Shown: positions 1,539-25,235 of the stretch, one piece after another
How the letters are laid out: each line of letters begins with the position of its first letter
Position numbering within the stretch: position 1 is the first letter of the stretch
DNA from: Halorubrum depositum
Lineage (GTDB): Archaea > Halobacteriota > Halobacteria > Halobacteriales > Haloferacaceae
Direction: 5' to 3'
Length of the DNA stretch: 64,000 nucleotides
Assembly: GCF_007671725.1 (NCBI RefSeq)
Contig: NZ_VCNM01000001.1
Location: 868,001-932,000 of the forward strand
The notes under the pieces: model-generated
What the model saw: the letters and a program-made list of their open reading frames with translations, nothing else
Database searches by the model: none
Told to the model about the DNA's origin: nothing
Made by a program: the position numbers and the translations under genes

Positions 1539-1552
1539 CTCGTCGGAGCCGG

Positions 1553-1574: not shown

Positions 1575-1582
1575 CGGACCGC

Positions 1583-4614: not shown

Positions 4615-4684
4615 CCGCCCGCAAACGTCGGTAAGGTGGTGTGGAACGCACGCCGGAACCGACCGTGAACCATTAACAACTGCG

Positions 4685-4693
4685 TTACAATAC
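4685..4693 (+). promoter_or_regulatory. TATA box, leaderless promoter of the FG-GAP gene
   Basis: TTACAATAC is centred about 28 bp before the ATG at 4717, which is the spacing expected for a leaderless haloarchaeal transcript and supports that start codon. Confidence 0.5.
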
Positions 4694-4716
4694 CCGCACC
4701 GACGCACCGGTCGGGT

Positions 4717-5877
4717 ATGTCACTGCAGGACGAGCGACGGTTACGGCTCGAACACGAGTGTATCGACGACAGTCCGCCGACCGCTCGAATGAGTTTCTGT
4801 CTCACTTCCGACCTCACGGGAAACGGTCGCCCAGACGTCATCGTCGGTGCGGTCGGGAGGAAAGCCCCCGTCACCATTCCGATAATCGACAAACGAATCT
4901 TCCTCGGGAAGCTCGTCGGCACCCGCGAGATCATCAACCGACTCGAGTGGAACGTCTTCTGGTACGAGAACCCCGGCTGGGAGCGACACGAGGTCGCGAA
5001 GTCGCCGGAGCTGTCGGTCGGCGCCGCGCTCGGCGACGTCGACGGCGACGGCCGCGTCGAGCTCGTCACCGGGCAGAACCTCAACGAACACGAGCTCTAC
5101 TGGTTCGAACAGGGGGCGGACCCGCGCAGTCGGTGGACGCGCCGGCTCATCACCGACGACTTCGAGAAGTACCACGACGTGGCCGTCGCCGACGTGGACG
5201 ACGACGGAGAGCTCGAGGTGCTCGCGCTCTCACAGGAGAGCGAGACCGTCTTCTACTACGACGTTCCCGACGATCCGACCTTGGAGCCGTGGCCCGTCAC
5301 CAACCGCCACCTCGTCGCCGAGAACCTGGACGTCGAGGGCGTGCAGGTCCTCGACATCGACGGCGACGGACGCACGGAGATCGTCGCCGGTACGAACGTG
5401 TTCCACCGGCGCGACGACGGCACGTGGGACCGCGAGGTCGTCGCCGAGGGGTGGGAGTGGACCCGGATCGTCGCCGCCGACGTCGACGGCGACGGCGAGA
5501 AGGAGCTCGTCGTGACGGAGGGAGACCTCCCGTATCAGGGCGACCGCCGCGCGCGACTCGGGGTCTTCGACCCGCCGGACTGGGAGCTGACGGTACTGCA
5601 CGACGACATGTCGAACCCGCACTCGCTCCAAGTGGCGGACCTGAACGAAGACGGCGACCTCGACATCTTCGTCGCCGAAATGGGGTTAGAGGAGGGACAC
5701 GAGCCGAGGCAGTTCGTCTTCTGGAACCGAGGCGACGGAACGTTCGACTCGGAGGTGGTCGCGAGCGGCGTGCCGACGCACGAGGCGAAACTGGTCGACC
5801 TCGACGGCGACGGACGGCTCGACGTCGTCGGCAAGGGGTACGCGCACCGCACCGTCGACGTGTGGCACCAGGCCTGA
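4717..5877 (+). CDS. FG-GAP/VCBS seven-bladed beta-propeller protein
   Basis: A 386-residue protein with seven calcium-loop repeats of the D-x-(D/N)-x-(D/N)-G-x-x-(D/E) type: DLTGNGRPDV, DVDGDGRVEL, DVDDDGELEV, DIDGDGRTEI, DVDGDGEKEL, DLNEDGDLDI and DLDGDGRLDV. Seven repeats fit a closed integrin-like propeller. Such propellers usually bind ligands or carbohydrates outside the cell, but I see no Sec or Tat signal peptide and no membrane anchor here. It could be cytoplasmic, or exported by an unrecognised route. It lies downstream of the flippase on the same strand with its own promoter, so a glycan-related role is inferred from context only. Confidence 0.8.
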   Translation: MSLQDERRLRLEHECIDDSPPTARMSFCLTSDLTGNGRPDVIVGAVGRKAPVTIPIIDKRIFLGKLVGTREIINRLEWNVFWYENPGWERHEVAKSPELSVGAALGDVDGDGRVELVTGQNLNEHELYWFEQGADPRSRWTRRLITDDFEKYHDVAVADVDDDGELEVLALSQESETVFYYDVPDDPTLEPWPVTNRHLVAENLDVEGVQVLDIDGDGRTEIVAGTNVFHRRDDGTWDREVVAEGWEWTRIVAADVDGDGEKELVVTEGDLPYQGDRRARLGVFDPPDWELTVLHDDMSNPHSLQVADLNEDGDLDIFVAEMGLEEGHEPRQFVFWNRGDGTFDSEVVASGVPTHEAKLVDLDGDGRLDVVGKGYAHRTVDVWHQA

Positions 5878-5919
5878 GCACCGATCTCGTCGCGTTCTCT
5901 CCCCGCCTCGCCTCCGCCG

Positions 5920-6168
5920 CTACTCCTCGCCGCCGGGCGTCGACTCGGGATCGGCGAACTCCTCGGGATCCGGGATCGAGAGGACGTCCTCTCGCGTTCC
6001 CATGTATCGCCCGCGAGAGACGCTCTCCTCGAACGCGTCGACGCTCTCGTACTCGCGAACCGTGAGGACGTGGCCACCCTCGACGTGGAACACGATCTCC
6101 GTGGACCCGTTCGGGAGGGCGTACTCGTCTCCTTTCGCCGGGGCTTCGGACTCCGGATCGCTACTCAT
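5920..6168 (-). CDS. Small acidic protein of unknown function
   Basis: An 82-residue acidic protein. The ATG at 6166-6168 was chosen because upstream codons in the frame are Arg/Pro-rich and non-haloarchaeal in character. The central part (GSTEIVFHVEGGHVLTVREYESVDAFEESV) is a predicted beta-beta-alpha unit, flanked by disordered Pro/Glu-rich ends. I do not recognise a family. It is convergent with the FG-GAP gene. Confidence 0.55.
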   Translation of the reverse strand: MSSDPESEAPAKGDEYALPNGSTEIVFHVEGGHVLTVREYESVDAFEESVSRGRYMGTREDVLSIPDPEEFADPESTPGGEE

Positions 6169-6452
6169 ACGCGTCCATGGCGGGCCGGGCATTTGAGTAG
6201 TCGCCTCGGATTCGCCGGGAGCGGGGTGCGAAAGAGGTGGCCGTCTGCGCGGTTCGACACTCTCCGAGGCGACGGTGCTGCCGTGCACCCTCACCCGAGC
6301 AATCGGGCTGCATAGTTATATCGGCGTTATCACATAAATATCGGAGCGATCTCGTTTTCGAACCGTTCGAATCAGTTATACGGTGTTTAACCACCCTCAT
6401 CACCAGTTTCAAAACCGACAAATAAATACGACGGAGGGTCCGATAAGGAGTC

Positions 6453-7007
6453 GTGTGGCCCTGGGGACACCTCGCGTTCGCGTACCTGCTTCACTCGTCG
6501 GTCGTGCACCTCTGGTATCGCCGACGTCCGGCGTGGCCCGGCGTCGCACTCGTGGCGCTCGGCTCGCAGGTGCCGGACCTCATCGACAAGCCGCTCGCGT
6601 GGACGCTTAACATCCTCCCGAGCGGTCGATCGCTCGGCCACTCGGTCCTCGTCGGCACGCTCATCGTCGTCGCCGCGGTCGCGCTCTGCAGGCGATACGA
6701 TCTGCGGGGGTGGCCGTTCGCCCTCGGCTACTACTCGCATCTCCTCGGCGATTCGATCCGGCCTCTGATCGACGGCCGGTTCCACGACCTCGCGTTCCTC
6801 CTGTGGCCGTTCTTCGAGGTGGAGACTGGGTCCGGGCCGTCGATCGGGATCGTTCAGTACCTGCTGAACGCGCAGCTCGAGGGGACGGTGTTGGTCGACC
6901 TCGGCCTGGCGAGCGCCGTCTTCGTCTGGTGGCTCGTCGACGGCGCGCCCGGCGTCAGACCCGTGTGGCAGGTGCTTCGCCGGCGATCCGTCACCGCGGG
7001 GAAGTAG
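6453..7007 (+). CDS. YdjM-like membrane-bound metal-dependent hydrolase
   Basis: A 184-residue integral membrane protein starting at GTG, preceded closely by AAGGAG. It shows the sequence pattern of the YdjM/LexA-regulated hydrolase family (PF04307): an N-terminal His in WGHLAFAYLLH, VPDLIDKP, GHSVLVGT and YYSHLLGDSI, which would supply the His/Asp metal ligands. Four to five hydrophobic helices are visible. The family is proposed to hydrolyse phospholipid-like or phosphate ester substrates at the membrane, but the physiological substrate is not known. It sits between a small unknown gene and a sulfatase-like gene, all of which could concern surface lipids or glycans. Confidence 0.75.
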   Translation: MWPWGHLAFAYLLHSSVVHLWYRRRPAWPGVALVALGSQVPDLIDKPLAWTLNILPSGRSLGHSVLVGTLIVVAAVALCRRYDLRGWPFALGYYSHLLGDSIRPLIDGRFHDLAFLLWPFFEVETGSGPSIGIVQYLLNAQLEGTVLVDLGLASAVFVWWLVDGAPGVRPVWQVLRRRSVTAGK

Positions 7008-9842: not shown

Positions 9843-11210
9843 TCAGGTCCGCCCGGATCCGATGGTGTACGTCGGGTGGCCGACGTCGCCGAGCGCATCC
9901 CGGCCGTCGACCACGACGACGTCCTCGAAGCCGTCCCACTCGACCGCGTCGAAGGCCTCGTGGGGGGTGACGACGACGACGGCGTCCGGGTCGGAGCGGC
10001 CGACCTCGGCCAGCGCGACCGGTTCCGCGCCGAACGAGGCGATCGTCTCGTCGTCGAGCATGGGATCCGTCGCGAACGTGTCCGCGCCGCGCCGCTTCAG
10101 GTCGGCGACGAGCGGTCCGGCGGGCGTCGCGCGCGTCTCCTTGACGCCCGGACGGTACGTGACGCCGAGGACCAGCACCCGCGATCCGTCGATCGGTTTC
10201 CCTCGCTCGGCGAGCTCGCGCTCAACGATCCCCGCGGTGAACGCCGGCATCGAGTCGTTCACTTCCCTCGCGGTCCGGAGCAGTGGCGTCGGCGTGTCCA
10301 CCCGGCTCATCACGAAGTACGGGTACCACGGGATGCAGTGGCCGCCGACGCCGGGGCCGGGGCTGTGGATGTGACAGAACGGCTGCGTGTTGGCCGCGTC
10401 AGCCGACTCCCGCACGTCGACCCCGAGGTCGTCCGCCAGGGTCCCGAGCTCGTTCGCGAGGGCGATGTTGACGTCGCGGTAGAGCCCCTCGAACAGCTTG
10501 ACCGCCTCGGCCGTCGTCGCGTCGGAGACGCGGATGACGTCGTTGTCGGTGACGCGCTCGTAGACGGCCTCGGCCACGCGGGCGCTCTCCGCGTCGACGC
10601 CGCCGACGATCTTCGGGTACGCGCCGGTGATGTCCTCGAGCGCCCGGCCGCTCGACGTGCGCTCCGGGCAGAACGCGGCGCCGAACTCGTCGGGGGCGAG
10701 CCCGCTCCGCTCGACGAGCGTCGGGACGAGCCGGTCGCGGCACGTCCCCGGGGGAACGGTGCACTCGACGAACACCGCGTCGCCGGGCGAGAGCCCGGAG
10801 GCAACCGAGTCGACGACCGTATCGAAGATGGAGAGGTCCGGTTCGTTCGCCTCAGTGATGGGCGTCGGAACGATGACGACGTGGGCGGTCGCCCGTTCCG
10901 CCGCCGCCCGGGCGTCGGTCGTCGCGCGGAGCGCGCCGTCCCCGACGGTTTCGGCCACCAGGTCGGGTAGCTCCGGCTCCCCGTCGATGTGACAGTCGCC
11001 GCGGTTGACCGACTCGACGACCGACTCGTCGACGTCGACGCCGACCACGTCGCCGACCCGATCGGCGAACGCGGTCGCCAGCGGGAGCCCCATCTTTCCG
11101 AGCCCGTACACCGCGACTGACGCGCCCCGCCCGTCGACGAGCGCGCGCAGTTCCTCGTCGCTGCGGGCGGCGTCGTACAGCGGCTCCGGCTTCGTCGGCG
11201 GCCGGGTCAT
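9843..11210 (-). CDS. UDP-N-acetyl-glucosamine/mannosamine 6-dehydrogenase (WbpA/WecC family)
   Basis: A 455-residue NAD-dependent UDP-sugar 6-dehydrogenase. It has VYGLGKMGLP (residues 34-43, dinucleotide binding), VPTP, the EAVKLFEGLYRDVNIAL helix with Lys238, and the catalytic Cys292 in GVGGHCIPWYPYF. The His-Cys-Ile-Pro context is typical of the UDP-N-acetylhexosamine branch rather than UDP-glucose dehydrogenase. It is the last gene of a four-gene minus-strand operon and its ATG overlaps the stop of the oxidoreductase gene. In the WbpA scheme it makes UDP-GlcNAc uronate, the first step toward 2,3-diacetamido uronic acids. A WecC role (UDP-ManNAcA) is the main alternative. Confidence 0.88.
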   Translation of the reverse strand: MTRPPTKPEPLYDAARSDEELRALVDGRGASVAVYGLGKMGLPLATAFADRVGDVVGVDVDESVVESVNRGDCHIDGEPELPDLVAETVGDGALRATTDARAAAERATAHVVIVPTPITEANEPDLSIFDTVVDSVASGLSPGDAVFVECTVPPGTCRDRLVPTLVERSGLAPDEFGAAFCPERTSSGRALEDITGAYPKIVGGVDAESARVAEAVYERVTDNDVIRVSDATTAEAVKLFEGLYRDVNIALANELGTLADDLGVDVRESADAANTQPFCHIHSPGPGVGGHCIPWYPYFVMSRVDTPTPLLRTAREVNDSMPAFTAGIVERELAERGKPIDGSRVLVLGVTYRPGVKETRATPAGPLVADLKRRGADTFATDPMLDDETIASFGAEPVALAEVGRSDPDAVVVVTPHEAFDAVEWDGFEDVVVVDGRDALGDVGHPTYTIGSGRT

Positions 11211-12220
11211 CGGTCCGACGGAACCGCGTGTCTGGCGTCGGTTCGAGGCCCCTCGGTCGCGTCCGCGCGCTCGAGGACGGCGTCGGCGAGCTCCACCGCG
11301 CGGAGCCCGTCCTCGGCCGTGATCCGCGGCGTCGCGTGCTCCGCGACCGACTCGACGAACGACTCGAGTTCGTATCGCAGCGGCTCGCCCGACTGGACCA
11401 TCGGGCGCTCCGTGATCCCCTCATGGTGGTAGCGGATGTTCCCCCCGATCTCCATGTACTCCGGGCGGGACTGGCGGTGGATCTCGATCGTCTGCGTGAG
11501 GTAGTCGAGCTCGATGTAACACTCCTCGGCCGTGATCGTGATGTCGCGGACCTTCTGCTGGGTCACGCGGCTGGCGGTGAGCGTGGCGATGGTGCCGTCG
11601 CCGAACCGGAGCTGCGCGGTCGCGTGCTGCCCGTCGTCGGTCCGGAGGGCGTTTATCCGGGCGACGTCCCCGGAGACGAGCGACCGGACGATGTCGAGGT
11701 CGTGTATCATCAGGTCGTGGACGACGTTCTCGTCCAGCGACCGCCCGTCGTCGCTCGGCGGCCCGAGGCGGCGGGCGTCGACGGCGATCGGCGACACGCC
11801 GTCGACGATCCGAGTCAGCTCCGCCACCGCCGGGTTGAACCGCTCGATGTGGCCGGCCTGGACGAGCACGTCCGCCGCCTCCGCCCGCTCGATCAGGTCC
11901 CGTCCCTCCGCGACCGAGGTCACGAACGGCTTCTCGACGAGCGCGTGGACCCCCGCGTCGATGCAGTCGCGGGCGAGGTCCGCGTGATACTCCGTCGGGA
12001 CGGCGATCGACACCGCGTCGACCCGGTCGAGCAGCGCGCCTGTCGCGTGCGACGTCGTGCCGATCTCGGCCGCGACGTCGGCGGCGCGGTCGGCGTCCGC
12101 GTCGGCGATCCCGACGAGGTGCGCGCCGGGGAGCTCAGCGTACACTCGCGCGTGGTTCCGGCCCATCGCGCCGACGCCGATGACGCCGACATCGACGTCG
12201 CCACCGTCGTCGGCCGTCAT
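11207..12220 (-). CDS. Gfo/Idh/MocA oxidoreductase (WbpB/WlbA-like)
   Basis: A 337-residue NAD(H)-dependent oxidoreductase with GVGAMGRNHARVY at the N-terminus (Rossmann GxGxxG) and the family hallmark VEKPF near residue 95-100. In the UDP-2,3-diacetamido uronate pathway this family oxidises C3 of UDP-GlcNAcA to the 3-keto sugar for transamination. ATGA overlaps link it to both the aminotransferase upstream and the dehydrogenase downstream, and this context is what supports the specific role. Substrate specificity cannot be read from the sequence alone. Confidence 0.85.
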   Translation of the reverse strand: MTADDGGDVDVGVIGVGAMGRNHARVYAELPGAHLVGIADADADRAADVAAEIGTTSHATGALLDRVDAVSIAVPTEYHADLARDCIDAGVHALVEKPFVTSVAEGRDLIERAEAADVLVQAGHIERFNPAVAELTRIVDGVSPIAVDARRLGPPSDDGRSLDENVVHDLMIHDLDIVRSLVSGDVARINALRTDDGQHATAQLRFGDGTIATLTASRVTQQKVRDITITAEECYIELDYLTQTIEIHRQSRPEYMEIGGNIRYHHEGITERPMVQSGEPLRYELESFVESVAEHATPRITAEDGLRAVELADAVLERADATEGPRTDARHAVPSDR

Positions 12221-13296
12221 ACGATCGCCCCCGCGGTCGCCTCGGCGATCCTGTCGAGGTCCGCCTCGTCGAGCTCGGGGTGAACGGGGAGCGACAGCAC
12301 CTCCTCCGCACAGCTCTCCGCGACCGGATACGACCCCGAGACGCCCTCGTACGCCGGCTGTTCGTGGATCGGGATCGGGTAGTACACACCCGACCCGACG
12401 TCGCGGCTCTCGAGGTGATCCCGGAGCGCGTCGCGGTCCGGAACCCGAACCGTGTACTGGTGGTACACGTGCTCGTACCCGTCCGGTTCGAGCGGCGTGA
12501 CGACGCCGGGGACGTCGGCGAGCCGGTCGGTCAGTCCGGCCGCGTTCTCCCGCCTCGCCCGAGTGAACTCCGGCAGGCGGTCGAGCTGGGCGCGGCCGAT
12601 CGCCGCCGCGAGGTTCGTCATCCGGAAGTTGTGACCGACCGACGCGTGTTCGTATCCGGTCGTTCGACCGTGGTCGACGAACCGGCGCGCCCGCTCGGCG
12701 ACCGCCTCATCGTCGGTGAGGATCATCCCGCCCTCCCCGGTCGTCATGTTCTTCGTCGGGTAAAACGAGAAGCAGGCCGCGTCCCCGAAGCTCCCGACGC
12801 GCTCGCCCTCGTAGCGCGCGCCGTGCGCCTGCGCCGCGTCCTCGAGGAGCCGGAAGTCGTACTCGTCGGCGAGCTCGCCGAGCCTACCGACGTCCGCGGG
12901 GAGCCCGTACAGGTGGACCGCGATGACGGCGTCGACCGGCTCGCCGTCCCGGAGCCGCGCTTCGAGCGCGTCCGGATCGATGTTGTACGTCCGCGGGTCG
13001 ACGTCGACGAAGTCCACCTCGGCCCCGGCCAGCCGCGCCGCGTTGGCCGTCGCGACGAAGCTGAACGGCGTCGTGAGCACCCGGTCCCCCTCCCCGACGC
13101 CGAGGCCAACGAGCCCGGCGTGGAGGGCCGCGGTCCCGTTCGCGGTCGCGATTCCGCGGTCGGCGCCGCAGTAGTCGGCGAACTCCGACTGGAACTCCTC
13201 GACGACCTCGCCCTCCGCCAACATCCCGGAGTCGATCACCGCCTCGACGCGGCGTTTCTCCTCGGCGCCGAGCGACGGATTCGCGCTGGGTATCAT
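12217..13296 (-). CDS. DegT/DnrJ/EryC1 sugar aminotransferase (WbpE-like)
   Basis: A 359-residue PLP enzyme of the sugar aminotransferase family. It shows NGTAALHAGL (cofactor phosphate site), EDAAQAHGA with the PLP-stacking Asp, and FSFYPTKNMTTGEGG with the Schiff-base Lys182. The N-terminal IPSANPSLGAEEKRRV is the standard start. In the WbpE role it aminates the 3-keto sugar made by the adjacent oxidoreductase, using glutamate. It is second in the operon and coupled at both ends by ATGA overlaps. Length and all core motifs are intact. Confidence 0.9.
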   Translation of the reverse strand: MIPSANPSLGAEEKRRVEAVIDSGMLAEGEVVEEFQSEFADYCGADRGIATANGTAALHAGLVGLGVGEGDRVLTTPFSFVATANAARLAGAEVDFVDVDPRTYNIDPDALEARLRDGEPVDAVIAVHLYGLPADVGRLGELADEYDFRLLEDAAQAHGARYEGERVGSFGDAACFSFYPTKNMTTGEGGMILTDDEAVAERARRFVDHGRTTGYEHASVGHNFRMTNLAAAIGRAQLDRLPEFTRARRENAAGLTDRLADVPGVVTPLEPDGYEHVYHQYTVRVPDRDALRDHLESRDVGSGVYYPIPIHEQPAYEGVSGSYPVAESCAEEVLSLPVHPELDEADLDRIAEATAGAIV

Positions 13297-13928
13297 CGGC
13301 TATCGGACCCCGGTTCGTCCCGGATCCGGTTGTCCCCGCTCAGTTCGTCGGGGAGGGGCTCGATCGTCGCAGGACAGCCGACGGCGAGCGTCTCCGGCGG
13401 GACGTCCTTCGTGACGACCGCGCCCGCGGCGACGAACGCGCCGCGGCCGACGGTGACCCCGGGAAGCACGGTCGCGTTCGCGCCGATAGAGGCGTGGTCC
13501 TCGATCGTCGGCCCGGTCAGCTCCACGTCCTGACGGACCGGAAACGGATCGTTCGTCAACACGGCGCCCGGACCGACGAAGACGTCGTCGCCGATCGTCG
13601 TGTTCGACGGCACGTACACCTGGCTCTGGAGGCTGACGCCGGATCCGACGGTGGAGTACCCGTCGATGACCGTCTGCGTCCCGACGAGCACGTCGTCGCC
13701 GATCTCGGTCTCCTCGCGGACGAGCACGCCGTGTCCGGTTTGGAACCCGTCGCCGACGACCACGTCGTCGTAGATCACCGAGTCCGAACGAATCGTCGCG
13801 TCGGTCCCGATGACCGGCTCGGCTCCGTCCCCGGTTCCGAGCGTCGCGTTCGACGCGACGTCCCCGTTGCCGCCCGACCCGACGTCGCCGTCCGCCGTAC
13901 CGTTCCCGTCGTCGTCCGACGAGCTCAT
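13293..13928 (-). CDS. Left-handed beta-helix acyltransferase (WbpD-like)
   Basis: A 211-residue hexapeptide-repeat protein, first gene of the four-gene operon. Repeats of the (I/V)GxxxxI type run through IGDDVLVGTQTVI, VGSGVSLQSQVYV, IGDDVFVGPGAVLTND and IGANATVLPGVTVGRGAFVAAGAVV, a trimeric acetyl-CoA transferase pattern with the terminal V(T/V)KDVPP turn. In the proposed pathway it acetylates the new 3-amino group of the UDP-uronate. The first ~35 residues are low-complexity Asp/Gly-rich, so the start codon may be further in; the ATG at 13926-13928 is used here because of its position after a clear gap. Confidence 0.85.
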   Translation of the reverse strand: MSSSDDDGNGTADGDVGSGGNGDVASNATLGTGDGAEPVIGTDATIRSDSVIYDDVVVGDGFQTGHGVLVREETEIGDDVLVGTQTVIDGYSTVGSGVSLQSQVYVPSNTTIGDDVFVGPGAVLTNDPFPVRQDVELTGPTIEDHASIGANATVLPGVTVGRGAFVAAGAVVTKDVPPETLAVGCPATIEPLPDELSGDNRIRDEPGSDSR

Positions 13929-14068
13929 GTCGTGACCCCGATCTCGTCGCCTGCGTGGCTGTACATCTCGTTGGAACGTTAGGACAGTGACGTTTTGTTA
14001 TGCTGCGTAAAAACGGAGCGGTAGCAGCGAGCTAACGGACGGAGCGGGTCGGGGCCGATCCGACGACC

Positions 14069-15277
14069 TCACTCGTTCGCCGACGTCGCGGTCTGGTCGT
14101 CGGTTTCCGCCCCGGTGGTCTCGCCGCCGTCACCCTCGCCGTCTCGTTCCTGAGATTCGACGAGCGCCTCGAGGGGGTTGCCGTCGATCTCCAGCGGGAG
14201 CGCCACGCGACCGCGCCGCCTGACCGACTCCCAGGACGCGAACGGCAGCTCCGCCGCGTACAGCGACCGATCGCCGCTAGTCGCCGGTTCCCGGTCCTCT
14301 CGGAGCGCGTCGACGACGTCCTCGATGGCCCGTTCGACGAACGAGGTGGGGAGGAACGCACGCTTGTCACCGAACGGGCTCCGTTCGGCGACTTTCCCGA
14401 GCCCCACGCGGAGTTTCCCGGGCTGCGGGCGGTGAATGCTCTCATCGGTGTCGACCGCGTTCCACCCGCCGTCTGTTCGGTATCTGAGCGGGGGCCCGCC
14501 CTCGACGCCGAGCTCGATCGCGCCGTCCTCGCCGATCAGTCGCATGTAACACCCGGTGAACTCGGGACCCATGCCCGGTCCCTCGCCCGTCGAGGCGATG
14601 CCGCGGACGCCGCTTTCGGTGTACCACTGCGCGAGCCCCTGGCTCTCGTTCCGCGTTCCGAACCACTCGTTCTCCTCGCTGAAGTCGGCGCCAGCCAACA
14701 CCCACTCGACGGGCGACCAGTCGGCGAAGTAGCCGGCGAGATCGAACTGGTGGGTGCCGGCGTCGAAGAGATTCACCTCGCCGAACTCGATCCGCTCGAG
14801 GTCGCCGACGGTCCCGTCGTCGAGCAGCGACTTCGCCCGCGTGAACGGGGCCCCGAAGCGACGCTGGTGGTTGATCGAGAGCTGCACGCCCTCGCGGTCG
14901 CACACCTCCACCATCCGGCGGCAGTCCCCCCACGTCGTCGCCATCGGCTTCTCGCAGTGGATCGCGAGCGGGACGCCGCTCTCGGCGCAGTCGACGACGA
15001 TCTGCGCGTGGAGCGCGGGAGGGACGCAGACGCTCACGAGGTCGGGCTCCGCGCCGGCGAGCATCGCCTCGTAGTCCTCGTACACATGCTCGGGCCGGAT
15101 GCCGAACGACTGGGCGAACGACTCGGCGTTCTCTCGGACGATGTCCGCGCACGCCACCAGCTCGACCCCGTCGAGTCGCTGGTACCCCGGCGCGTGCCGA
15201 TACGCCATCGCGTAGCCGGTGCGGTCGGGTTCGTCGGTGTCCGCGCCGGTACCGATGACCGCGGCTCTCATTGCCAT
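14069..15277 (-). CDS. Gfo/Idh/MocA oxidoreductase (second copy)
   Basis: A 402-residue NAD(P)-dependent oxidoreductase; ATG at 15275-15277 or 15269-15271 are both possible. The N-terminus MRAAVIGTGADTDEPDRTGYA has an unusual insertion within the nucleotide-binding loop, and IHCEKPMATTWGDCRRM carries the family EKP motif. INHQRRFGAPFTRA supplies the usual catalytic-domain entry. It is more divergent from the WbpB-like copy and longer at the C-terminus, where a ~25-residue Glu/Thr/Asp-rich tail is likely disordered. It is separated by 140 bp from the four-gene operon on the same strand and probably has its own promoter. It likely acts on another sugar or inositol derivative. Confidence 0.8.
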   Translation of the reverse strand: MAMRAAVIGTGADTDEPDRTGYAMAYRHAPGYQRLDGVELVACADIVRENAESFAQSFGIRPEHVYEDYEAMLAGAEPDLVSVCVPPALHAQIVVDCAESGVPLAIHCEKPMATTWGDCRRMVEVCDREGVQLSINHQRRFGAPFTRAKSLLDDGTVGDLERIEFGEVNLFDAGTHQFDLAGYFADWSPVEWVLAGADFSEENEWFGTRNESQGLAQWYTESGVRGIASTGEGPGMGPEFTGCYMRLIGEDGAIELGVEGGPPLRYRTDGGWNAVDTDESIHRPQPGKLRVGLGKVAERSPFGDKRAFLPTSFVERAIEDVVDALREDREPATSGDRSLYAAELPFASWESVRRRGRVALPLEIDGNPLEALVESQERDGEGDGGETTGAETDDQTATSANE

Positions 15278-15458
15278 TGGAACGTCGTACTGAGGAACCA
15301 GCCAATAGTATGTGGCTGTTAACGAGGTGGACGTGCCGATCTCGGCGACGGGGACGAGATGAGACCTGGCGTCGCTCGGAGGAGACGGACCCGCTGCCAA
15401 CCGACGACGGGACTCGCGGTCGGAGGGGCGGTGCTAACATCGTAATAATCTCGCATAT

Positions 15459-15520: not shown

Positions 15521-17476
15521 ATGTCTTCCGATCACGACCCAGAGCCGGTCGAGGCGGCTCCCACGGGTCCCACGGAGTTCGCGAGCGTGTCCAGGCGCTC
15601 GGTTCTCAGGGCCGTCGGTGCGGGGGCGGCAGCACCGCTCCTCGCAGGCGCGTCGAGCAGAGCGTCGAGCGCCGCGTCCGATTCGTGGACGATAGTCGCG
15701 CTCCCGGACACGCAGTACTACGCGAACAACGAGCGCCGGTACCGGTTCGCCGTCGACCAGACCGACTGGATCGCCGAGAACGCCGACGCCGAGAACATCG
15801 CCTTCGTCAGCCACGAGGGCGACGTCGTCCACGAGGGCGACCAGACGGAGCAGTGGGACCGAATGGACGACGCGATGGCGACGCTGGACGGCGTGGTCCC
15901 GTACAGCACGCTGCCGGGCAACCACGACTACGCCGACACGCGGAATCGAAGCTCCGGGCTCGACAACTACGTCGACTACTTCGGCGCGTCGCGGTTCGAT
16001 GGGTATGACTGGTTCGGCGGGACCGGCCCCAGTGACGAGGAGGCGAACTCCTACCAGCTGTTCTCGGCGGGCGGGTACGACTTCCTCCACCTCGCGTTAG
16101 AGTGGGAGCCGCGCGACGAGACGCTCGAGTGGGCACGAGACGTGCTCGACCGGTTCCCCGAGCGACCGGCCGTTCTCACGACTCACGCGTACCTGACCGA
16201 CGGCGACAGGGAGGGCGGCGACGAGTCGAATCCGGGACGAGCGCGGTTCATCGAGGAGGAGAACGGGGACGGGAACTCGGGCGAACAGGTGTGGCGGAGG
16301 CTCGTCGCCCCGAACTCCCAGGTGTTCATGGTTCTCAGCGGCCACTTCCACGAGAACTTGAATCAGGACGCGGATCCGCAGACGAGCGGCGAGTACCACC
16401 AGGTGTCCGAGAACGACGCCGGAGAGGACGTCTACGAGATGCTCGCGAACTACCAAAAGAGGGACGGATCGGGGTTCAGTTTACTCAGGCGGATCTCGTT
16501 CGAGCCGGGGAGCGGTGACCCGGATCGGATCAGCGTCAGCACGTACAATACGTATAAAGACGAGTACGAGACCGACGACAACAGCGAGTTCGCCTTCGAT
16601 CTCGACTTCGACGAGCGGTTCGCACAGGAGTCGTCGACGGATCCCACCGAGCGCTTCTCCTTCGAGCAGGGCGCCGACGGCTACGAAGGGACGAGCGACA
16701 CTAACCTCCGCGAAGCGAACCCCCAGACCGGATACGGCGACGCCTCGACCGTGACGGTCGACACCAAGGAACCGCAGGACTCGGATAATCGCGCGCAGGC
16801 GCTCGTCCGGTTCGACGGCGTGATCGGCGATGGGGACGGACAGGTCCCGCCGAACGCGACCGTGAACTCGGCCACGCTGACCGTCGAGACCGTAGACGAG
16901 GGGAGCGGCGGTGCGGTACACCGACTGCTCAGAGAGTGGAGCGAGAGCGACACCTGGGAATCGTTCGGCGGCGGCGTCAGCGCCGACGGCTCCGACGCGA
17001 CCGCGGACCCCGAAGCGAAGGCGGAGGCCGTCTCGGAGGGGCCGACAGAAATCGACGTCACGGCCAGCGTCCGGGAGTGGGTCGGCGGCGAGCCCAACCA
17101 CGGGTGGGCGATCCTTCCCCTCGGCGACGATGGGTGGGACTTCTCGACCGCCGAGGGCGACGCGCCGCCGCAGCTAACCGTGACGTTTGAACCCGGCGAC
17201 GGCGGCGATGACGATAGCGAGGACGGCACCGGCGACGGCAGCGATGGCGGTGACGGCACCGGCGACGGCGGAGACGGCGGGGACGAACCGAACGAACCAC
17301 TCCCCGGCGACGCGGACGGCGACGGCGACGTAGACGATGCCGATGTCGATCTCGCCCAGCGACACGTCGCAAACGAGGACGTCGACATCGACCGCGAGGC
17401 CGCGGACATGGACGACGACGGTGAGATCGACATCACGGACGTCGTCGAGATAGTCGACGAGACGGGAGGACGATGA
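15521..17476 (+). CDS. Tat-exported metallophosphoesterase with DNRLRE module and dockerin
   Basis: A 651-residue secreted protein. A Tat signal is at the N-terminus (SRRSVLR, residues 24-30, then a hydrophobic AVGAGAAAPLLAGA stretch). Residues ~55-370 are a calcineurin-like phosphoesterase: PDTQYY, GDVVHEGD, LPGNHDY, TTHAY and SGHFHEN give the metal ligands. Residues ~380-560 match a DNRLRE/CBM96-type beta module (ALVRFDG, VTASVREWV, NHGWAILP). An Asp/Gly linker follows. Residues ~596-651 are a type I dockerin with two calcium loops, GDADGDGDVDDADV and ADMDDDGEIDITDV. The stop overlaps the ATG of the cohesin gene, so the two products are made together and are expected to bind each other. Confidence 0.9.
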   Translation: MSSDHDPEPVEAAPTGPTEFASVSRRSVLRAVGAGAAAPLLAGASSRASSAASDSWTIVALPDTQYYANNERRYRFAVDQTDWIAENADAENIAFVSHEGDVVHEGDQTEQWDRMDDAMATLDGVVPYSTLPGNHDYADTRNRSSGLDNYVDYFGASRFDGYDWFGGTGPSDEEANSYQLFSAGGYDFLHLALEWEPRDETLEWARDVLDRFPERPAVLTTHAYLTDGDREGGDESNPGRARFIEEENGDGNSGEQVWRRLVAPNSQVFMVLSGHFHENLNQDADPQTSGEYHQVSENDAGEDVYEMLANYQKRDGSGFSLLRRISFEPGSGDPDRISVSTYNTYKDEYETDDNSEFAFDLDFDERFAQESSTDPTERFSFEQGADGYEGTSDTNLREANPQTGYGDASTVTVDTKEPQDSDNRAQALVRFDGVIGDGDGQVPPNATVNSATLTVETVDEGSGGAVHRLLREWSESDTWESFGGGVSADGSDATADPEAKAEAVSEGPTEIDVTASVREWVGGEPNHGWAILPLGDDGWDFSTAEGDAPPQLTVTFEPGDGGDDDSEDGTGDGSDGGDGTGDGGDGGDEPNEPLPGDADGDGDVDDADVDLAQRHVANEDVDIDREAADMDDDGEIDITDVVEIVDETGGR

Positions 17477-19149
17477 CCCGACGAATCGGCGTCGGCGGTC
17501 TGCGCCACGCGACCGTCGTCGTCGTGACGACGGCGCTGCTCCTCGGAGCGGCCCTCTCGGGCGCCACCGTCGGCGTCGTCGACGCGGACGGGTCGTCGGT
17601 CGCGGTCACCGACGGATCGGGCGGGAGCGCGGTCGAAGCCGCCCCCGGCGAGACGGTCGCGGTGACGGTCGGCGCGAACGCGTCGAACGTGAGCGCCTAC
17701 CAGGCCAATCTCACCTTCGACCCCGACGTCGTGCGGATCGTGTCGGTGTCGGGGACCGACGACTTCGACGACCCCGTCGCCAACGTCGACAACGAGAGCG
17801 GCTGGGTCGCGTTCAACCAGTACCGGTCCTCGAACGCCACCGATCCGCGGCTCGCGACGGTGACGCTAGAACTCGTCGGCGGCGCCGGGAACGAGACGAC
17901 GCTCGCGTTCGCGGAGTCCGATACGAAACTCGCAGACGACGCGGCCCGGGAGCTGGGCATCGACGGGTACGGCGATCTGACCGTCATCGTCGAATCCGAT
18001 TCGAGCGGTGACGGCGGAGAGGGGAGCGACGGTGGCGACGGTAGTGACGGCGGCGATGGTGGTGACGGCGGTGACGATGGTAGCGGCGGCAGCGATGGTG
18101 GTGACGGCGGTGACGATGGTAGTGACGGTAGCGACGGTGGCGACGGCGGTGACGGCGGTGACGATGGTAGTGACGGTAGCGACGGTGGCGACGGCAGCGA
18201 CGGTGGCGACGGCAGCGACGGTGGCGACGGCGGCGACGGCGGGTCAGGAAACGATGGCGATAACGACGGCGGCGATGACGACGGAGGCAACGGCGGCGGG
18301 AGTCCGGGCGGCGGAGCGAGCGGTGGGGGGACGAGCGGGGGAAGCGCCGGTGCCGATGAGAACGACGAGGCGCCCGAAGGTCCCCCGCGCGTCGCCGCTC
18401 ACACCGCATCGATGAACGGCGAGGCGTCTATCGTGACGACGTTCGACGGGATCAGCCCGACGATCGAGCGCGTCGAACTCCTGTTCGAGGCGGCCGTCTC
18501 CGGCGAGTACGTCACGACGGAGTTCGAACGGCTTCCGACCGACCTCGCAGACTCCAGGGGCGACGCCGACGACGTCCTCACCGTGATCGAGTTCGGCGCG
18601 CCGGACGGGTCCGAGGACGCGCCGGCGGAGCTGGTCCTCGCGCTCAATCGGAGCGCGGTCGACGCGTCCGATCAGAGCGTCGACGGCCTGCGGATCGAGC
18701 GCTACGACGAGGCGACCGGACAGTGGGTAGGGGTCGACGCGGCGGTCGACGGTTCGGACGAGGCGACCGTGACGCTCACCGCCGCTCCGTCACGCCTCGG
18801 CTGGGTCGTCGTTTCGGCGGGGAATTCGTCCCGGACGGACGCCGCGGCCGACCCCGCGAACGGTACCTCGGCCGGATCGGACGGAGATGCGGACGGCACG
18901 GCCGAGGGCTCCGACGCGACGAACGGGACGGTTGGCGACGCCGACGGAAAGAACGGGGCGGCGGACAGCTCCGACGGAACGACGGGCGACTCTGGCACGA
19001 CAGCGGGCGACTCCGGAGCGACGAGCGACTCGTCTACCGAGGGTCCCGGCGTCACCCAGTCGGAGGTGCCGGGATTCGGCGTGACGAGCGTCCTCGCCGC
19101 CGGCGCGCTGCTGTACGGGTTCCTCCGTTTCGGACGCCGGACGCGATAG
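17473..19149 (+). CDS. Cohesin-domain surface protein with PGF-CTERM-like anchor
   Basis: A 558-residue exported protein starting within the stop codon of the dockerin gene. A hydrophobic Sec-type signal covers residues ~10-35. Residues ~37-177 are a cohesin-like beta-sandwich (GETVAVTVGANASNVSAYQ, LTFDPDVVRIVSVSG, LATVTLELVG). A ~110-residue linker of Asp-Gly-Gly and Ser-Asp repeats follows. Residues ~305-455 match the PGF-pre-PGF domain found before archaeal C-terminal anchors (ASIVTTFDG, RIERYDEATGQWVGVDA). A Thr/Asp/Gly-rich stretch leads to VPGFGVTSVLAAGALLYGF plus basic residues, a PGF-CTERM-like sorting and lipid-attachment signal processed by archaeosortase. It would hold dockerin-bearing proteins at the cell surface. 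Confidence 0.88.
   Translation: MTRRIGVGGLRHATVVVVTTALLLGAALSGATVGVVDADGSSVAVTDGSGGSAVEAAPGETVAVTVGANASNVSAYQANLTFDPDVVRIVSVSGTDDFDDPVANVDNESGWVAFNQYRSSNATDPRLATVTLELVGGAGNETTLAFAESDTKLADDAARELGIDGYGDLTVIVESDSSGDGGEGSDGGDGSDGGDGGDGGDDGSGGSDGGDGGDDGSDGSDGGDGGDGGDDGSDGSDGGDGSDGGDGSDGGDGGDGGSGNDGDNDGGDDDGGNGGGSPGGGASGGGTSGGSAGADENDEAPEGPPRVAAHTASMNGEASIVTTFDGISPTIERVELLFEAAVSGEYVTTEFERLPTDLADSRGDADDVLTVIEFGAPDGSEDAPAELVLALNRSAVDASDQSVDGLRIERYDEATGQWVGVDAAVDGSDEATVTLTAAPSRLGWVVVSAGNSSRTDAAADPANGTSAGSDGDADGTAEGSDATNGTVGDADGKNGAADSSDGTTGDSGTTAGDSGATSDSSTEGPGVTQSEVPGFGVTSVLAAGALLYGFLRFGRRTR
18004..18246 (+). repeat. Degenerate tandem repeats coding for the Gly/Asp linker
   Basis: Units built from GGTGACGGC, GATGGTAGTGAC and GGTAGCGAC hexamers to dodecamers are repeated many times within the cohesin gene, in frame, and encode D-G-G/S-D-G. 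Longer blocks of about 50 bp recur, so replication slippage can change the linker length without breaking the frame. Confidence 0.8.
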
Positions 19150-19229: not shown

Positions 19230-20453
19230 TCAGTCGGCGGTGTGGGCCTGCTTCCGATCGGGGAGGGATTCGATACGCTCGACGATCTCGCGGTCGATCC
19301 CCTCCGCGTTCCAGTCCGCGGTGCGCGGAATCCACGCCTGATAGGTGTCGACCTCCTCGAACAGCTGCCGGAACGCGTCCTCCTCGGCCTCGACCACCTC
19401 CTCCAGCTGGTCGGCGAAGGAGGGTCCGGGACAGAGCGCGTCGTACGCCAGGAAGTACTCCTCGAGGAGCTCGTTCCACTCGTAGTAGCTGATCGCGTTG
19501 ACCTCCGTCACCATCCGCTCGGCCGACAGTTCCTCGACCGAGACGTGGTCCTCGTTCGGCGCCGCCCTGAGAGCGACGACGTTGTCCACCGTCGACTCCG
19601 GGACGTGTTCCGAGCGCGGAAATATCTCCGAGACGTCCGTGAACTCCCGGCCCTGCTCTGCGAGGAACCTCTCGCTGAGGAAGCTGATACCCTTATGAAC
19701 GACGCTGTCGCCCGCGTTCACGTTCACCTCGATGAACTGGCTCACCTCGTCGCGGATCTTGTCCTGGACGTCGTCGTGTTCGACCTCGATCTCGGGGAAC
19801 GATCGGATGTTGTACGGCTGGAGATTCACCGACAGCGGGTAGCCGAGAGCGGTTCCGTCCGTGCCGACCCACAGGCGATCGTCGGAGAGGTACCCCGCTC
19901 CCTCCCGCAACAGCGAGAGGAGGGTGTTCGTCTTCCCGCCGCCGCGCCAGGCGGGGAACAGCGTCGTCTCCCCGTTCAGCTCGATTCCGGACGCGTGAAC
20001 GAGCGCCCGCCCCTCCTTCGCGAGCTCCTGTCTGATCCGGAACTCGACGGGATACGTCGCCTTGAACGGCTCCCAGTTCGGCGACACGTAGATGTGGTCC
20101 CACCCCGGTTCGACCGCCATGAAGTTCGAGCCGCTCCGAACGACGAACCGATCGCCGGTCCAGCCGTAGTGGTCGGAGGGGTCGCCGAGGACCGCGTCGA
20201 GCTCCGGCTCCTCCGTCGTCCGCTCGACCACGACGTCCGGCTCGCGTCCCGGGTCTTCGACCTCGAAGTGGTCGAACATCGTGTAGAACTGCTGAGTGGA
20301 GCGCCCGCCATCTCCGCGAACCTCTAGCAGCACCGATCCGAAGAAGTCGTAGTAGTGTCGTCTCATCACTACGGCGCTCCGATCAGGTAGCTGGGTCGAG
20401 GCAACGTCACGTGCGACTGTTCGCCGAATCGTATTCTTCGAAACATCTGACAC
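19230..20453 (-). CDS. HprK-like P-loop protein of unknown function
   Basis: A 407-residue cytoplasmic protein. Residues 166-176 (FPAWRGGGKTN) form a Walker A-like loop and LSDD at 189-192 a Walker B-like site, in the order and spacing seen in HPr kinase/phosphorylase-type proteins and in related PqqD- or lasso-peptide-associated kinases. The N-terminal half (residues ~31-150) is alpha/beta with no assigned family. The GTG at 20451-20453 is favoured because a TATA box at 20481-20488 lies ~30 bp upstream; the ATG at 20366 is the alternative. No HPr or other PTS protein is visible here, so the phosphate acceptor may be a glycan precursor or a protein. Function is unknown. Confidence 0.65.
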   Translation of the reverse strand: MSDVSKNTIRRTVARDVASTQLPDRSAVVMRRHYYDFFGSVLLEVRGDGGRSTQQFYTMFDHFEVEDPGREPDVVVERTTEEPELDAVLGDPSDHYGWTGDRFVVRSGSNFMAVEPGWDHIYVSPNWEPFKATYPVEFRIRQELAKEGRALVHASGIELNGETTLFPAWRGGGKTNTLLSLLREGAGYLSDDRLWVGTDGTALGYPLSVNLQPYNIRSFPEIEVEHDDVQDKIRDEVSQFIEVNVNAGDSVVHKGISFLSERFLAEQGREFTDVSEIFPRSEHVPESTVDNVVALRAAPNEDHVSVEELSAERMVTEVNAISYYEWNELLEEYFLAYDALCPGPSFADQLEEVVEAEEDAFRQLFEEVDTYQAWIPRTADWNAEGIDREIVERIESLPDRKQAHTAD

Positions 20454-21559: not shown

Positions 21560-23206
21560 CTACTCCATGTACCCCAATCCCCGCAGCCGGTCCTCGACCT
21601 CGTCGAAGTCGCCGTCGACCTCCCCTTGCGGCTCTCCGGCGTCGTACTCCGCGGTCCGGACGGGCCTCTCCGCGGCGGGCGATCCGGCCGCGAGTATCTC
21701 CTCGATCACGCCGCCGTCGGCGTGCGACGGCACCGGGCGATCGAGCAGGTGCAGGAGAGTCGGGACGAGGTCGACGGCCGAGGCGTCCGCCGGCCGCGAC
21801 TCCGCCTCGATACCGGGGCCGTGCGCGAAGAAGATCCCCTCCGATTCGTGGTCCGCGGCCTTCTGCGGGACGGTGAACGGCTCGTCGGCGAACTGCCAGT
21901 TGACCGTGTAGCCCTCGATCGACTCGATCAGGAGGTCCGGTTCGAGCGTGTCGCCGTCGGCGGACGCTTCGTGACCGGGACCGTCCGCGTCGGGCTTTTC
22001 GTCGCCGGTTCCGTCTGCACCGGCCCTCCCGCGGTCGGGGTCAACCACGACGAGCGGCCGGTCGCCCGTCTCCGGGTCCCGGACGTTCTCGAGGAGTTCC
22101 GTCACCCGGCGTTTGACCGCCGGGACCTCCGAGGGGGGAACGGTCCCCGACGCGAACCGTTCGGTGTCGTTGACGTAGACGCTCCCGAGCCCGTGGAGGA
22201 ACGCCTCGGTGTGCGAGAAGTCGGCGTCGTACAGCGCGTGGTCGCCGGGAATACGGGTCGCCGCCTGGCTGATCAGTCCCTCGGGGAGGTATCGAACCAG
22301 CGTCCCCTCGTCGACGCCGACCCGCTTCAACGCCGCGAGCACGTCGTCTTTATCGAAGCCGACGGTAGACATGACGCCCCGCACTCCCCCCTGCTCCTGC
22401 CGCGCGATGAGCCCCTCTCGACGGAGGATCTCGTTGACGTTCACCTGGCGGGAGACGGGGCCGAAACCGTGGTCCGAGACGACGAAGAGGACGGCGCCGG
22501 CCTCCTCGCACCGCTCGACGACTTCGGCCAGCAGGTCGTCGAGCTCCTCGTAGTGCGCCTTGAGCACCGCCTCGTCCCAGATGAGATGTTGGAGTCGATC
22601 GGGCGCGGTGTACACGAAAAAGGAGAGCGTCCAGTCGGTCCGTTCGAGGAGGACCCGCATGAGCTCTCGACGGTCCGACAGCATACCGTCGAGCGCGTCG
22701 AGGAACGCCTCCCGCCGGCCGAAGTACTCCTTCCAGTCCAGCCCGATCTCGTAGTCGGGGATCCGACGGTCGATCGCCGCCCCGAGCTCCGGGGGGTACG
22801 TGAACGCCGAGGCGTCCTCCGGCGTCATCATCCCGGTGGCCATCTCGCCGTCGAACTCCCGAGCGGGGAACGTCATCGGGACGTTGCCGACGACGGCCGG
22901 CGAGACGATGTCCCAGATCGCCGGTCGGCTCCGGTCCGCGCCCGTGTTCGGGCGCTGCCCGTACCGGCGGTTCAGCTTCATGAACTCGAACAGCCCGTGG
23001 CCGGCGGGGTCACAGCCGGTCGCTATCGACGGCCACGCGACCGGCGTGTTGGCCGGAACCGTACTCGCGAACGGTCCCGCGGCGCCCTCCCGCCGGAGCC
23101 GCTCGAACGTCGGGAGGTCCCCCTCGTCCATCCACTTCTCGACCAGCGACCACGGGACGCCGTCCAGTCCGAGGACGAACGCCCGTTCCGGCTCGGACGC
23201 GGTCAT
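21560..23206 (-). CDS. Type I phosphodiesterase/nucleotide pyrophosphatase-like protein
   Basis: A 548-residue AP-superfamily protein of the NPP branch. AFVLGLDGVPWSLVEKW holds the first metal Asp, ANTPVAWPSIATGCDPAGHG contains the Thr nucleophile (N-T-P), and LFVVSDHGFGPVSRQVNVN supplies the Asp-His metal ligands. A long Asp/Gly/Glu-rich insert sits near residues 390-420 and is probably a disordered haloarchaeal loop. It ends LRGLGYME, the tail shared with other proteins in the window. No signal peptide is seen. The substrate may be a phosphodiester in a glycan, lipid or nucleotide-sugar. Confidence 0.85.
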   Translation of the reverse strand: MTASEPERAFVLGLDGVPWSLVEKWMDEGDLPTFERLRREGAAGPFASTVPANTPVAWPSIATGCDPAGHGLFEFMKLNRRYGQRPNTGADRSRPAIWDIVSPAVVGNVPMTFPAREFDGEMATGMMTPEDASAFTYPPELGAAIDRRIPDYEIGLDWKEYFGRREAFLDALDGMLSDRRELMRVLLERTDWTLSFFVYTAPDRLQHLIWDEAVLKAHYEELDDLLAEVVERCEEAGAVLFVVSDHGFGPVSRQVNVNEILRREGLIARQEQGGVRGVMSTVGFDKDDVLAALKRVGVDEGTLVRYLPEGLISQAATRIPGDHALYDADFSHTEAFLHGLGSVYVNDTERFASGTVPPSEVPAVKRRVTELLENVRDPETGDRPLVVVDPDRGRAGADGTGDEKPDADGPGHEASADGDTLEPDLLIESIEGYTVNWQFADEPFTVPQKAADHESEGIFFAHGPGIEAESRPADASAVDLVPTLLHLLDRPVPSHADGGVIEEILAAGSPAAERPVRTAEYDAGEPQGEVDGDFDEVEDRLRGLGYME

Positions 23207-23493
23207 CGCTGCACCGCTCCGGGGGAACGCGTCGCCGTCGTGCGGCGTCGATCGGCGGGCGTCGAACGGGGACTCCGATAGTCGGGCGTCGGTCGCGGGG
23301 GCCGATAGCCGTCACGTCTCTCGCGGGCGCGCTCGCTCCGCCCTGCGCCGAGTGGGTCCATAGCTGTCACGTCCCTACCGCCTTCGACCACATTGTTACT
23401 CCCGACCTATCGGACGGAACCGGGCGCGCGGCCGACGGAGCAAGAGGGCCAGCGGCCGGCGGAGAGAGCGGCCGGCCGCAGACGGGGAGAGAC

Positions 23494-24894
23494 TCAGAGG
23501 TACCCCAAGTCCTCCAGCTGTTTCGCCATCTCCGGGCTGAAATCGGCGGTCCGTTCCCGGGAGTCGCCCGGCGCGCCGTGCGTCGCGAGCCACGAGTCGG
23601 TCTCGCCGGCCAGGCGCTCGGCGACGTCGGGCGCCGACTCGGAGACGTCGGCGGACTCGTCGGGCAGCCGAAAGAGGTCCGCGCGATCGTCGCCGCGCTG
23701 GTACCGGTGCTCCGTCGTCCGGGCGCTGGTGACGACTCCGGTGAGGAACCGACTCGCGTCGAACGACGGGTTATGCCGGCGGAGCTCCTCGATCTTCGTC
23801 GCGCTTCGCGGTTCGCCGCGCTGGGTGAACGCGACCGCTCTGGGGTCGGTCCGGATGTCCCGTCCGATCGGGACCGGCACGTCCAGTCCGAGCTCCGCGA
23901 CGATCGTCCGCATCACGTCGGCGTGTTGGACGACGCCCGAATGATCGCCGGAGAGGCCGTCCAGCCCCGCGACGACGAGCGGGACGTTCGTGACCGCCGT
24001 ATGCGTCGACAGCATGTGCGCGAGCAGCCCCTCCTCGCCGAAGAACTCGCCGTGGTCGGCGGTGACGACGATTATCGGGTCGTCGAGCTCGGTCCGGGCC
24101 GTCTCGACGATGGACTCGGCGACGGCGTCGACGTACGCCAGCGACGTGTCGTACATCACGTCGATCGCGTTCCACGTCTCCGCGTCGAACGGGAGCCCGT
24201 TAGCGATGTGTTCGTGGATCCGATCGGACATGTCGAGCGACGCGGCGAGGGCCCGATCCATCGACGCGTCGAGGTCGTCCTCGAACCGGTCGCGCCAGCC
24301 CTTCGGCGGGTAGTACGGGTGGTGGCTGTCGCCGAGGTGCGCGTAGAGGAAGAGCGGGTCGTCGCCGCCGGACGCCCGGCGGACGTGGCGGCTCGCCAGC
24401 GCGTCGATCATGTAGCCCGTGCTGTGTTTCCTCGTGTCGGTCGTCCAGCCGGCCGAGTGGCGCCGGAGGTTCAGGAAGTACTTCGCGAGGATACGCGGAC
24501 CGACCTGTTCGAGGAGCTGGTCTTTGCCGAGGTAGTGGAAGCGCTCGAACCCGCGGTCGAGACCGGTCGCGGCGCTCACCTGTGCGATCGGGGAGACGCC
24601 GACCGTCCGGTAGCCCGCGTCGCGAAGCCCCTCCGGGATCGTCGGGATGTCGTCCGAGAGCGCGAGCTCAGTCGACCACGTCCGGTGATTCGAGGGGGCG
24701 CGGCCGGTCAGGATCGACGTCGACGACGGCCGGGTCCAGACGGCGTGAGTGGTGCAGTTCTCGAACGCAGCGCTGTCGTCCTCGCTCGCGAGCCGGTCGA
24801 GGAACGGCGTCGTGTCGCGCTCGTGGCCGCCGACGGACGTCCGGTCGTACCGGACGCTCTCGAGCGTGAGCCACACGATGTCCCGGTCGGGCAT
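23494..24894 (-). CDS. Sulfatase-like AP-superfamily protein with Thr nucleophile
   Basis: A 466-residue relative of the protein at 7239. It begins DIVWLTLESVRYDRTSVGG, where Glu replaces the usual metal-binding Asp, continues with RDTTPFLDRLA, and has HAVWTRPSSTSILTG, where Thr replaces the formylglycine Cys/Ser. VTADHGEFFGEEG holds the second metal site. The start at 24892-24894 is backed by a TATA box centred 28 bp upstream. The tail is QLEDLGYL. The conserved Glu and Thr changes in two paralogs suggest a distinct subfamily, perhaps a phosphotransferase or phosphodiesterase acting on the surface glycan. Confidence 0.82.
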   Translation of the reverse strand: MPDRDIVWLTLESVRYDRTSVGGHERDTTPFLDRLASEDDSAAFENCTTHAVWTRPSSTSILTGRAPSNHRTWSTELALSDDIPTIPEGLRDAGYRTVGVSPIAQVSAATGLDRGFERFHYLGKDQLLEQVGPRILAKYFLNLRRHSAGWTTDTRKHSTGYMIDALASRHVRRASGGDDPLFLYAHLGDSHHPYYPPKGWRDRFEDDLDASMDRALAASLDMSDRIHEHIANGLPFDAETWNAIDVMYDTSLAYVDAVAESIVETARTELDDPIIVVTADHGEFFGEEGLLAHMLSTHTAVTNVPLVVAGLDGLSGDHSGVVQHADVMRTIVAELGLDVPVPIGRDIRTDPRAVAFTQRGEPRSATKIEELRRHNPSFDASRFLTGVVTSARTTEHRYQRGDDRADLFRLPDESADVSESAPDVAERLAGETDSWLATHGAPGDSRERTADFSPEMAKQLEDLGYL

Positions 24895-24918
24895 TGGGAC
24901 ACACCAGGTCGCAGGCGC

Positions 24919-24926
24919 GTTTAATT
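24919..24926 (-). promoter_or_regulatory. TATA box, leaderless promoter
   Basis: The minus-strand sequence AATTAAAC is centred about 28 bp from the ATG at 24894, consistent with leaderless initiation of the sulfatase-like gene. Confidence 0.5.
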
Positions 24927-25235
24927 CATGACTCGCTAACCGGCCCGTTCCCGAGCGAACCGGCCGGGAACGCCGTCGTCGAGACGTCGATTTCGATCGG
25001 GTATCGCAGCGATCGAGGGGGCCAGAACGCCAGCAAACCGGAGCGACTACGGACCGGCTTACGACCGGATTAACCGCTCGAGGCGCTCCGCGAGCGCTTC
25101 GTCGCACTCCGCGAGCGCGTCGTTTCCGACCCCGACCCCGAGGCGAACGCCGCGGTCCGGCTGGGGGACACCGATCCGATGCCGGCGGCGGTATCGAGTC
25201 GATAACGAAGTACCGAGTCGGTTTACCGAGACGGA

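Follow-up and report, generated by a model that had tools for sequence, protein, structure and literature searches.

Closest described systems and the Halorubrum locus

Archaeal cohesins and dockerins are already known (PMC9012536, PMC5244752), and what they do in non-cellulosomal proteins has been described as unknown (PMC5244752). The closest precedent for the locus described here is the pair ORF2375/ORF2376 (AF2375/AF2376) of Archaeoglobus fulgidus, where consecutively numbered genes encode a protein with a C-terminal dockerin (residues 432-506) and a protein with a near-N-terminal cohesin (residues 29-162, structure 2XDH); strong and specific binding of the two modules is reported (PMC9705933, citing earlier work). 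We analyzed a window, that is, a whole stretch of 64,000 nucleotides, from Halorubrum depositum (RefSeq assembly GCF_007671725.1, contig NZ_VCNM01000001.1, positions 868,001 to 932,000 of the forward strand), and found the same placement of modules in two overlapping genes, A and B. Protein A is a metallophosphoesterase that ends in a dockerin, while protein B carries a cohesin and a PGF-type tail. We propose, with a probability of about 80%, that A and B would form a private docking pair, dependent on calcium, by which the enzyme is kept at the cell surface.

The Halorubrum pair differs from that of Archaeoglobus in its cargo (a metallophosphoesterase with a CBM96 domain), the PGF-tailed receptor, the four-nucleotide gene overlap and a conserved kinase-like neighbor. 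With the clostridial cellulosome it shares the cohesin fold, the calcium-loop dockerin and the presumed use of an anchored cohesin for holding an enzyme at the surface. On the other hand, the system consists of one cohesin and one cargo in a single overlapping gene pair, with no cellulase and no scaffoldin with several cohesins. The dockerin and cohesin proteins of anaerobic methanotrophic archaea (PMC9012536, PMC5244752) are likewise a non-cellulosomal archaeal use of these modules on exported proteins; however, they include multi-cohesin proteins whose partners are not assigned, whereas in the haloarchaeal case adjacency suggests the pairing. Our literature search, in which the main 2009 survey was outside the scope, found no publication on overlapping dockerin and cohesin gene pairs in Halobacteria, on the class II cohesins described below or on the third gene, K.

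The overlapping gene pair

The features of the two genes are as follows (window coordinates).

15521 to 17476, plus strand: gene A, 651 amino acids; Tat-type (twin-arginine translocation) metallophosphoesterase, CBM96/DNRLRE domain, Gly/Asp linker, dockerin
15590 to 15610, plus strand: SRRSVLR, the twin-arginine motif of A; both arginines unchanged in the 15 orthologs; PF10518 E=0.021
15680 to 16660, plus strand: metallophosphoesterase domain of A (PF00149) with invariant motifs PDTQ, GD, GNHD, TTH and GHxH
16691 to 17185, plus strand: CBM96/DNRLRE carbohydrate-binding-type domain of A; absent in 4 of 15 orthologs
17303 to 17464, plus strand: class I dockerin of A (PF00404), two calcium-loop repeats; calcium ligands conserved in 15 orthologs
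17473 to 17476, plus strand: ATGA, stop/start codon overlap of A and B; exact four-nucleotide overlap in most of 15 pairs
17473 to 19149, plus strand: gene B, 558 amino acids; signal peptide, cohesin, Gly/Asp/Ser linker, middle domain, PGF tail
17584 to 17985, plus strand: cohesin domain of B (PF00963), the segment that was folded; AlphaFold2 model with PDB matches
18001 to 18372, plus strand: Gly/Asp/Ser linker of B; variable, absent in L109 and L073
18385 to 18822, plus strand: middle domain of B; several orthologs have a CARDB-like domain in its place, and two have none
19069 to 19146, plus strand: PGF-CTERM-like tail of B, a PGFG motif followed by a hydrophobic helix and an RR end

Both open reading frames (ORFs) were confirmed. 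An earlier reading of this DNA from sequence only had B start inside the stop codon of A; its start ATG at 17473 shares nucleotides with the last codon of A and the TGA stop. Such an overlap probably couples the translation of enzyme and receptor.

In protein A, the Metallophos profile PF00149 matched residues 81-278 (E=4e-9) and the searches for a carbohydrate-binding domain found CBM96 at residues 391-555 (E=5e-8) and DNRLRE NF033679 (E=1.2e-18). The match of the Tat profile was weak; the RR pair is nonetheless invariant. Dockerin_1 (PF00404) covered residues 595-642 with E=1.4e-3, and a profile built from the dockerins of A orthologs matched solved dockerins at 4.9e-6. The enzyme motifs and the dockerin calcium ligands, which are Asp or Asn positions in both loops, are invariant or nearly so in all 15 A proteins. 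The description of A as an exported phosphoesterase with a two-loop type I dockerin is supported, as are the export signals on both proteins.

The cohesin-like domain proposed for B was found as well. PF00963 matched residues 53-156 with E=1.5e-9 (38.6 bits, cut-off 24.1), and the AlphaFold2 model of the domain had a jelly-roll cohesin fold with a predicted local distance difference test score (pLDDT) of 84.6. All 50 of the 50 PDB matches listed by Foldseek for this model were cohesins, the Archaeoglobus structure 2XDH among them (best E 9.8e-6). The middle domain of B had no profile match; a PGF-pre-PGF-like domain, which had also been suggested, was not seen in the NCBIfam search with E up to 10.

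We suggest the following course of events. Protein A would be exported folded by the Tat route, while B would leave by its N-terminal signal peptide and stay in the membrane through its PGF-type tail, probably after processing by archaeosortase A (ArtA). The C-terminal dockerin of A, loaded with calcium, would then bind the cohesin of B, and the phosphoesterase with its carbohydrate-binding domain would be kept at the cell surface rather than lost. Binding of A to B is likely, because the Archaeoglobus pair, with the same module placement, reportedly binds strongly and specifically. The substrate of A is likely to be phosphate esters on an extracellular polymer. The analysis shows the domains, the fold, the gene order, the conservation and the co-occurrence, while binding, anchoring chemistry, activity and substrate are inferred.

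Conservation in Halobacteria

We searched 292 Halobacteria genomes with the enzyme domain and found 20 copies in 18 genomes. Fifteen of the copies end in a dockerin, and a B-type cohesin gene lies directly behind each of them (15/15); the remaining five have neither a dockerin nor an adjoining cohesin (0/5). This pattern gives phylogenetic support to the surface-display role that the sequence-only reading had assigned to the cohesin. The arrangement is kept in 15 genomes of 5 genera, representing at least 15 haloarchaeal species, which exceeds chance. The exact four-nucleotide overlap (ATGA or GTGA) was observed in 12 of 14 orthologous pairs and, with the window pair, in 13 of 15, the other two having spacings of +2 and +6. 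The arrangement had been called unusual; in fact, it is the rule for the dockerin-bearing enzyme and is common among haloarchaeal dockerins.

The mean pairwise identity was 66% for the dockerin and 66% for the enzyme, so the dockerin is conserved to the same degree as the enzyme. What varies is the CBM96 domain in A and, in B, the linker together with the middle domain. The loci L109 and L073, the closest relatives, show a minimal form in which an enzyme with a dockerin is followed by a protein of 205-206 amino acids made of a signal peptide, a cohesin and a PGF tail. These orthologs have no CBM96, linker or middle domain, and therefore what selection kept would be the enzyme, the plug, the socket and the tail. 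A scan of genome contigs with the enzyme alignment returned only one close relative, Halobellus inordinatus.

One of the dockerin-less copies (L144:3818-6746, genome G100), as read from its sequence, has a part resembling glycoside hydrolase family 16 (GH16) ahead of the phosphoesterase in the same polypeptide. This fusion hints at a polysaccharide-linked substrate for the phosphoesterase family.

Dockerin and cohesin pairs across Halobacteria

Cohesin matches were present in 131 of the 292 genomes and dockerin matches in 137, many more than the single archaeal cases assumed earlier. For the survey of gene neighbors, 80 dockerin sites were taken from a score-ranked list of Halobacteria matches, chosen blind to their neighbors, and 51 of them were C-terminal. 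A cohesin on the same strand was found within 2 kb downstream of 31 of these 51 dockerins and within 2 kb upstream of only one.

The dockerins fell into two classes. Class I dockerins, with GDxDGDGD or GDVNxDG loops, precede cohesins of the Pfam type; besides the present pair, their proteins are mostly S8 subtilases. Class II dockerins, with the pattern YEDVNGDG...DFNGDG, precede a divergent domain that the Pfam cohesin model did not report in any of 21 cases. When this domain was compared to the class I cohesins by hhalign, the match was 88% with E 3e-6, and its structural model had a pLDDT of 90, with cohesins as 50 of the 50 best listed structures. The iterated home-made cohesin profile that was used could have drifted, and it was checked by hhalign and by the predicted fold. 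This second cohesin class, invisible to Pfam, is thus predicted to have the cohesin fold.

The class pairings were 28 of I with I and 23 of II with II, one more was left unassigned, and eight class II dockerins had no partner; the II/II count is partly a matter of construction, because the paired loci themselves served to build the class II profile. The absence of any class I cohesin behind a class II dockerin is unaffected by how that profile was built.

Class II cargo included PKD domains, PQQ propellers, beta-helices and a 5'-nucleotidase domain. At the loci L044, L047, L048, L049, L052, L054, L055, L056, L067, L072 and L079, proteins that end in a cohesin and a dockerin, mostly S8 subtilases (11 of 12 in alignment A8), each have a cohesin gene behind them. 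They form another widely conserved class I pair, whose cargo is a protease. A class II dockerin subgroup of the YEDVNGDGVVDM type (L040, L050, L053, L059, L102; five genomes) has no cohesin neighbor. Two genomes have 13-14 cohesin and 7-14 dockerin matches each, with the cohesins clustered in one locus (G043:C1:470000-492000 and G208:C1:77000-110000); these loci include multi-cohesin ORFs, that is, scaffoldin-like arrays in Halobacteria.

Alternative explanations

Several observations count against docking of A by B. Some genomes encode the enzyme without a dockerin, which means that it can do without docking. The co-occurrence of dockerin and cohesin (15/15 versus 0/5) has a Fisher p=6e-5 that ignores relatedness; the 15 pairs share ancestry and the value overstates their independence, so we take it as a description and not as a clean probability. 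The distance matrices of dockerin, cohesin and enzyme correlated nearly equally and gave no signal of specific co-evolution. The score of the A dockerin lies on both sides of the PF00404 cut-off of 22.9 bits, with 19.2 bits by hmmscan and 24.8 bits in the genome scan, which makes the match a borderline one. In the first enzyme motif, PDTQ, a Gln replaces the usual His (D-x-H) in all orthologs, and the catalysis by A is therefore presumed. Finally, the tail of B gave no match to the PGF-CTERM profile TIGR04126.

The last observation bears on how B is anchored, and either mode of anchoring is compatible with docking. It is possible, if somewhat unlikely, that a plain C-terminal transmembrane helix holds B, with no archaeosortase cleavage or lipid transfer, as TIGR04126 is unmatched by most of the B orthologs too. 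Against this stand the PGF motif, whose G and F do not vary among the 15 orthologs and which precedes a helix and a mostly basic end, the TIGR04126 match in one ortholog of the 15 (2.3e-5), the matches of two orthologs to the ArtA-dependent S-layer glycoprotein family, and the presence of archaeosortase A in the genome (TIGR04125, E 1.7e-101). Of the PGF-CTERM-like anchor named by the sequence-only reading, the pattern of PGFG, helix and RR is in place and has the one ortholog match, while the profile match in B itself is absent.

The protein B could also be a general receptor on which further proteins dock in a small cellulosome-like assembly. The genome does encode four dockerin proteins, three besides A, and one of them has no intact cohesin neighbor. 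However, B has one cohesin, the only one that Pfam detects in the genome, and the three other dockerins are of class II; one of the three has a two-cohesin class II neighbor overlapping it by ATGA, and another has a class II neighbor broken by a stop codon. Each B ortholog likewise has one cohesin, save a possible second one in L060. We thus consider a general receptor improbable. The pair A-B, on the contrary, is probably private, because B is the sole cohesin detectable by Pfam and the other three dockerins belong to another class with different cohesin neighbors.

The pair with the intact class II neighbor (L036, G000:C1:848500-856500, genes 3405-5828 and 1441-3408, minus strand, overlap of four nucleotides) consists of a beta-helix-like dockerin protein and a partner bearing two class II cohesin domains, of which the first has a predicted cohesin fold and no Pfam match. 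In the broken one (L037, G000:C1:103500-112000, 1291-6896, minus strand) a dockerin protein with PKD repeats is followed by a class II cohesin that is interrupted by a stop codon and whose remnant reads into an ORF resembling a restriction endonuclease; it is probably a broken pair.

That the dockerin is a calcium-stabilized tail or a substrate-binding module with no binding to B, the two genes being merely co-transcribed, agrees with recent haloarchaeal papers on a mannanase and a glycosaminoglycan lyase, which call the dockerin substrate-binding (PMC10963439, PMC13260240), and with the surveyed dockerin proteins that have no cohesin neighbor, but we hold it to be very improbable given the dockerin-cohesin linkage in the enzyme family, the downstream bias of 31 to 1, the matching of dockerin and cohesin classes and the binding reported for the Archaeoglobus pair.

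A conserved third gene and the flanking genes

The pair has a conserved neighbor, gene K:

19230 to 20453, minus strand: gene K, HprK-like P-loop protein (GGGKT, SDDR), 407 amino acids

K adjoins all 15 pairs, intact in 14 and as a remnant in G171, so the whole system is not confined to two overlapping genes as had been thought. One enzyme without a dockerin (G268) has K immediately upstream as well, and only two of the 18 genomes with K in the whole sample have no enzyme. In most genomes K immediately precedes the pair on the same strand, at a distance of 330-590 bases; it is convergent in three genomes of the window's genus and is downstream on the same strand in G081.

The P-loop and the SDDR region resemble those of the HprK-related kinases (TIGR04352, TIGR04355), to which every K ortholog is weakly similar. 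All 15 K proteins gave below-cut-off matches to HprK-related kinase B, TIGR04355 (best 2.5e-8; 24 bits for K against a curated cut-off of 200), and all orthologs matched HprK-related kinase A far below the cut-off. Because every match is far under the curated cut-off, K makes a separate family, which we take to be a new one of HprK-like kinases.

A putative cytoplasmic kinase conserved next to a putative surface phosphoesterase suggests that the two may act on one and the same phosphorylated substrate. Phosphate editing by the three genes would go further, and we offer it as a doubtful extension of the docking model: K would phosphorylate a sugar or a protein in the cytoplasm, the product would be exported, and the docked A would remove the phosphate at the surface, the phosphate being a temporary cap or signal. 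In that case private pairs, in two classes that exclude each other, would be the general haloarchaeal way of keeping single exported enzymes on the cell.

On the minus strand at 9843-15400, the window encodes a UDP-sugar dehydrogenase, two Gfo/Idh oxidoreductases, a DegT aminotransferase and a hexapeptide transferase, which make up a nucleotide-sugar pathway. A connection between the pair and the glycan synthesized locally had been considered; as a general feature it was ruled out, since most of these sugar genes are shared with one genome of the same genus (L149) and do not accompany the pair in other genera. Also near the pair, at 21560-25107 on the minus strand, are a type I phosphodiesterase/nucleotide pyrophosphatase (2e-35) and a sulfatase (3e-31).

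Implications

The results lead to a simple rule that can be tested: in Halobacteria, a C-terminal dockerin is usually followed by the gene of its own cohesin. The rule assigns candidate partners to dozens of exported proteins, and it adds a cohesin class that Pfam has overlooked. The pairs are also candidate salt-tolerant docking modules for protein display on archaeal cells.

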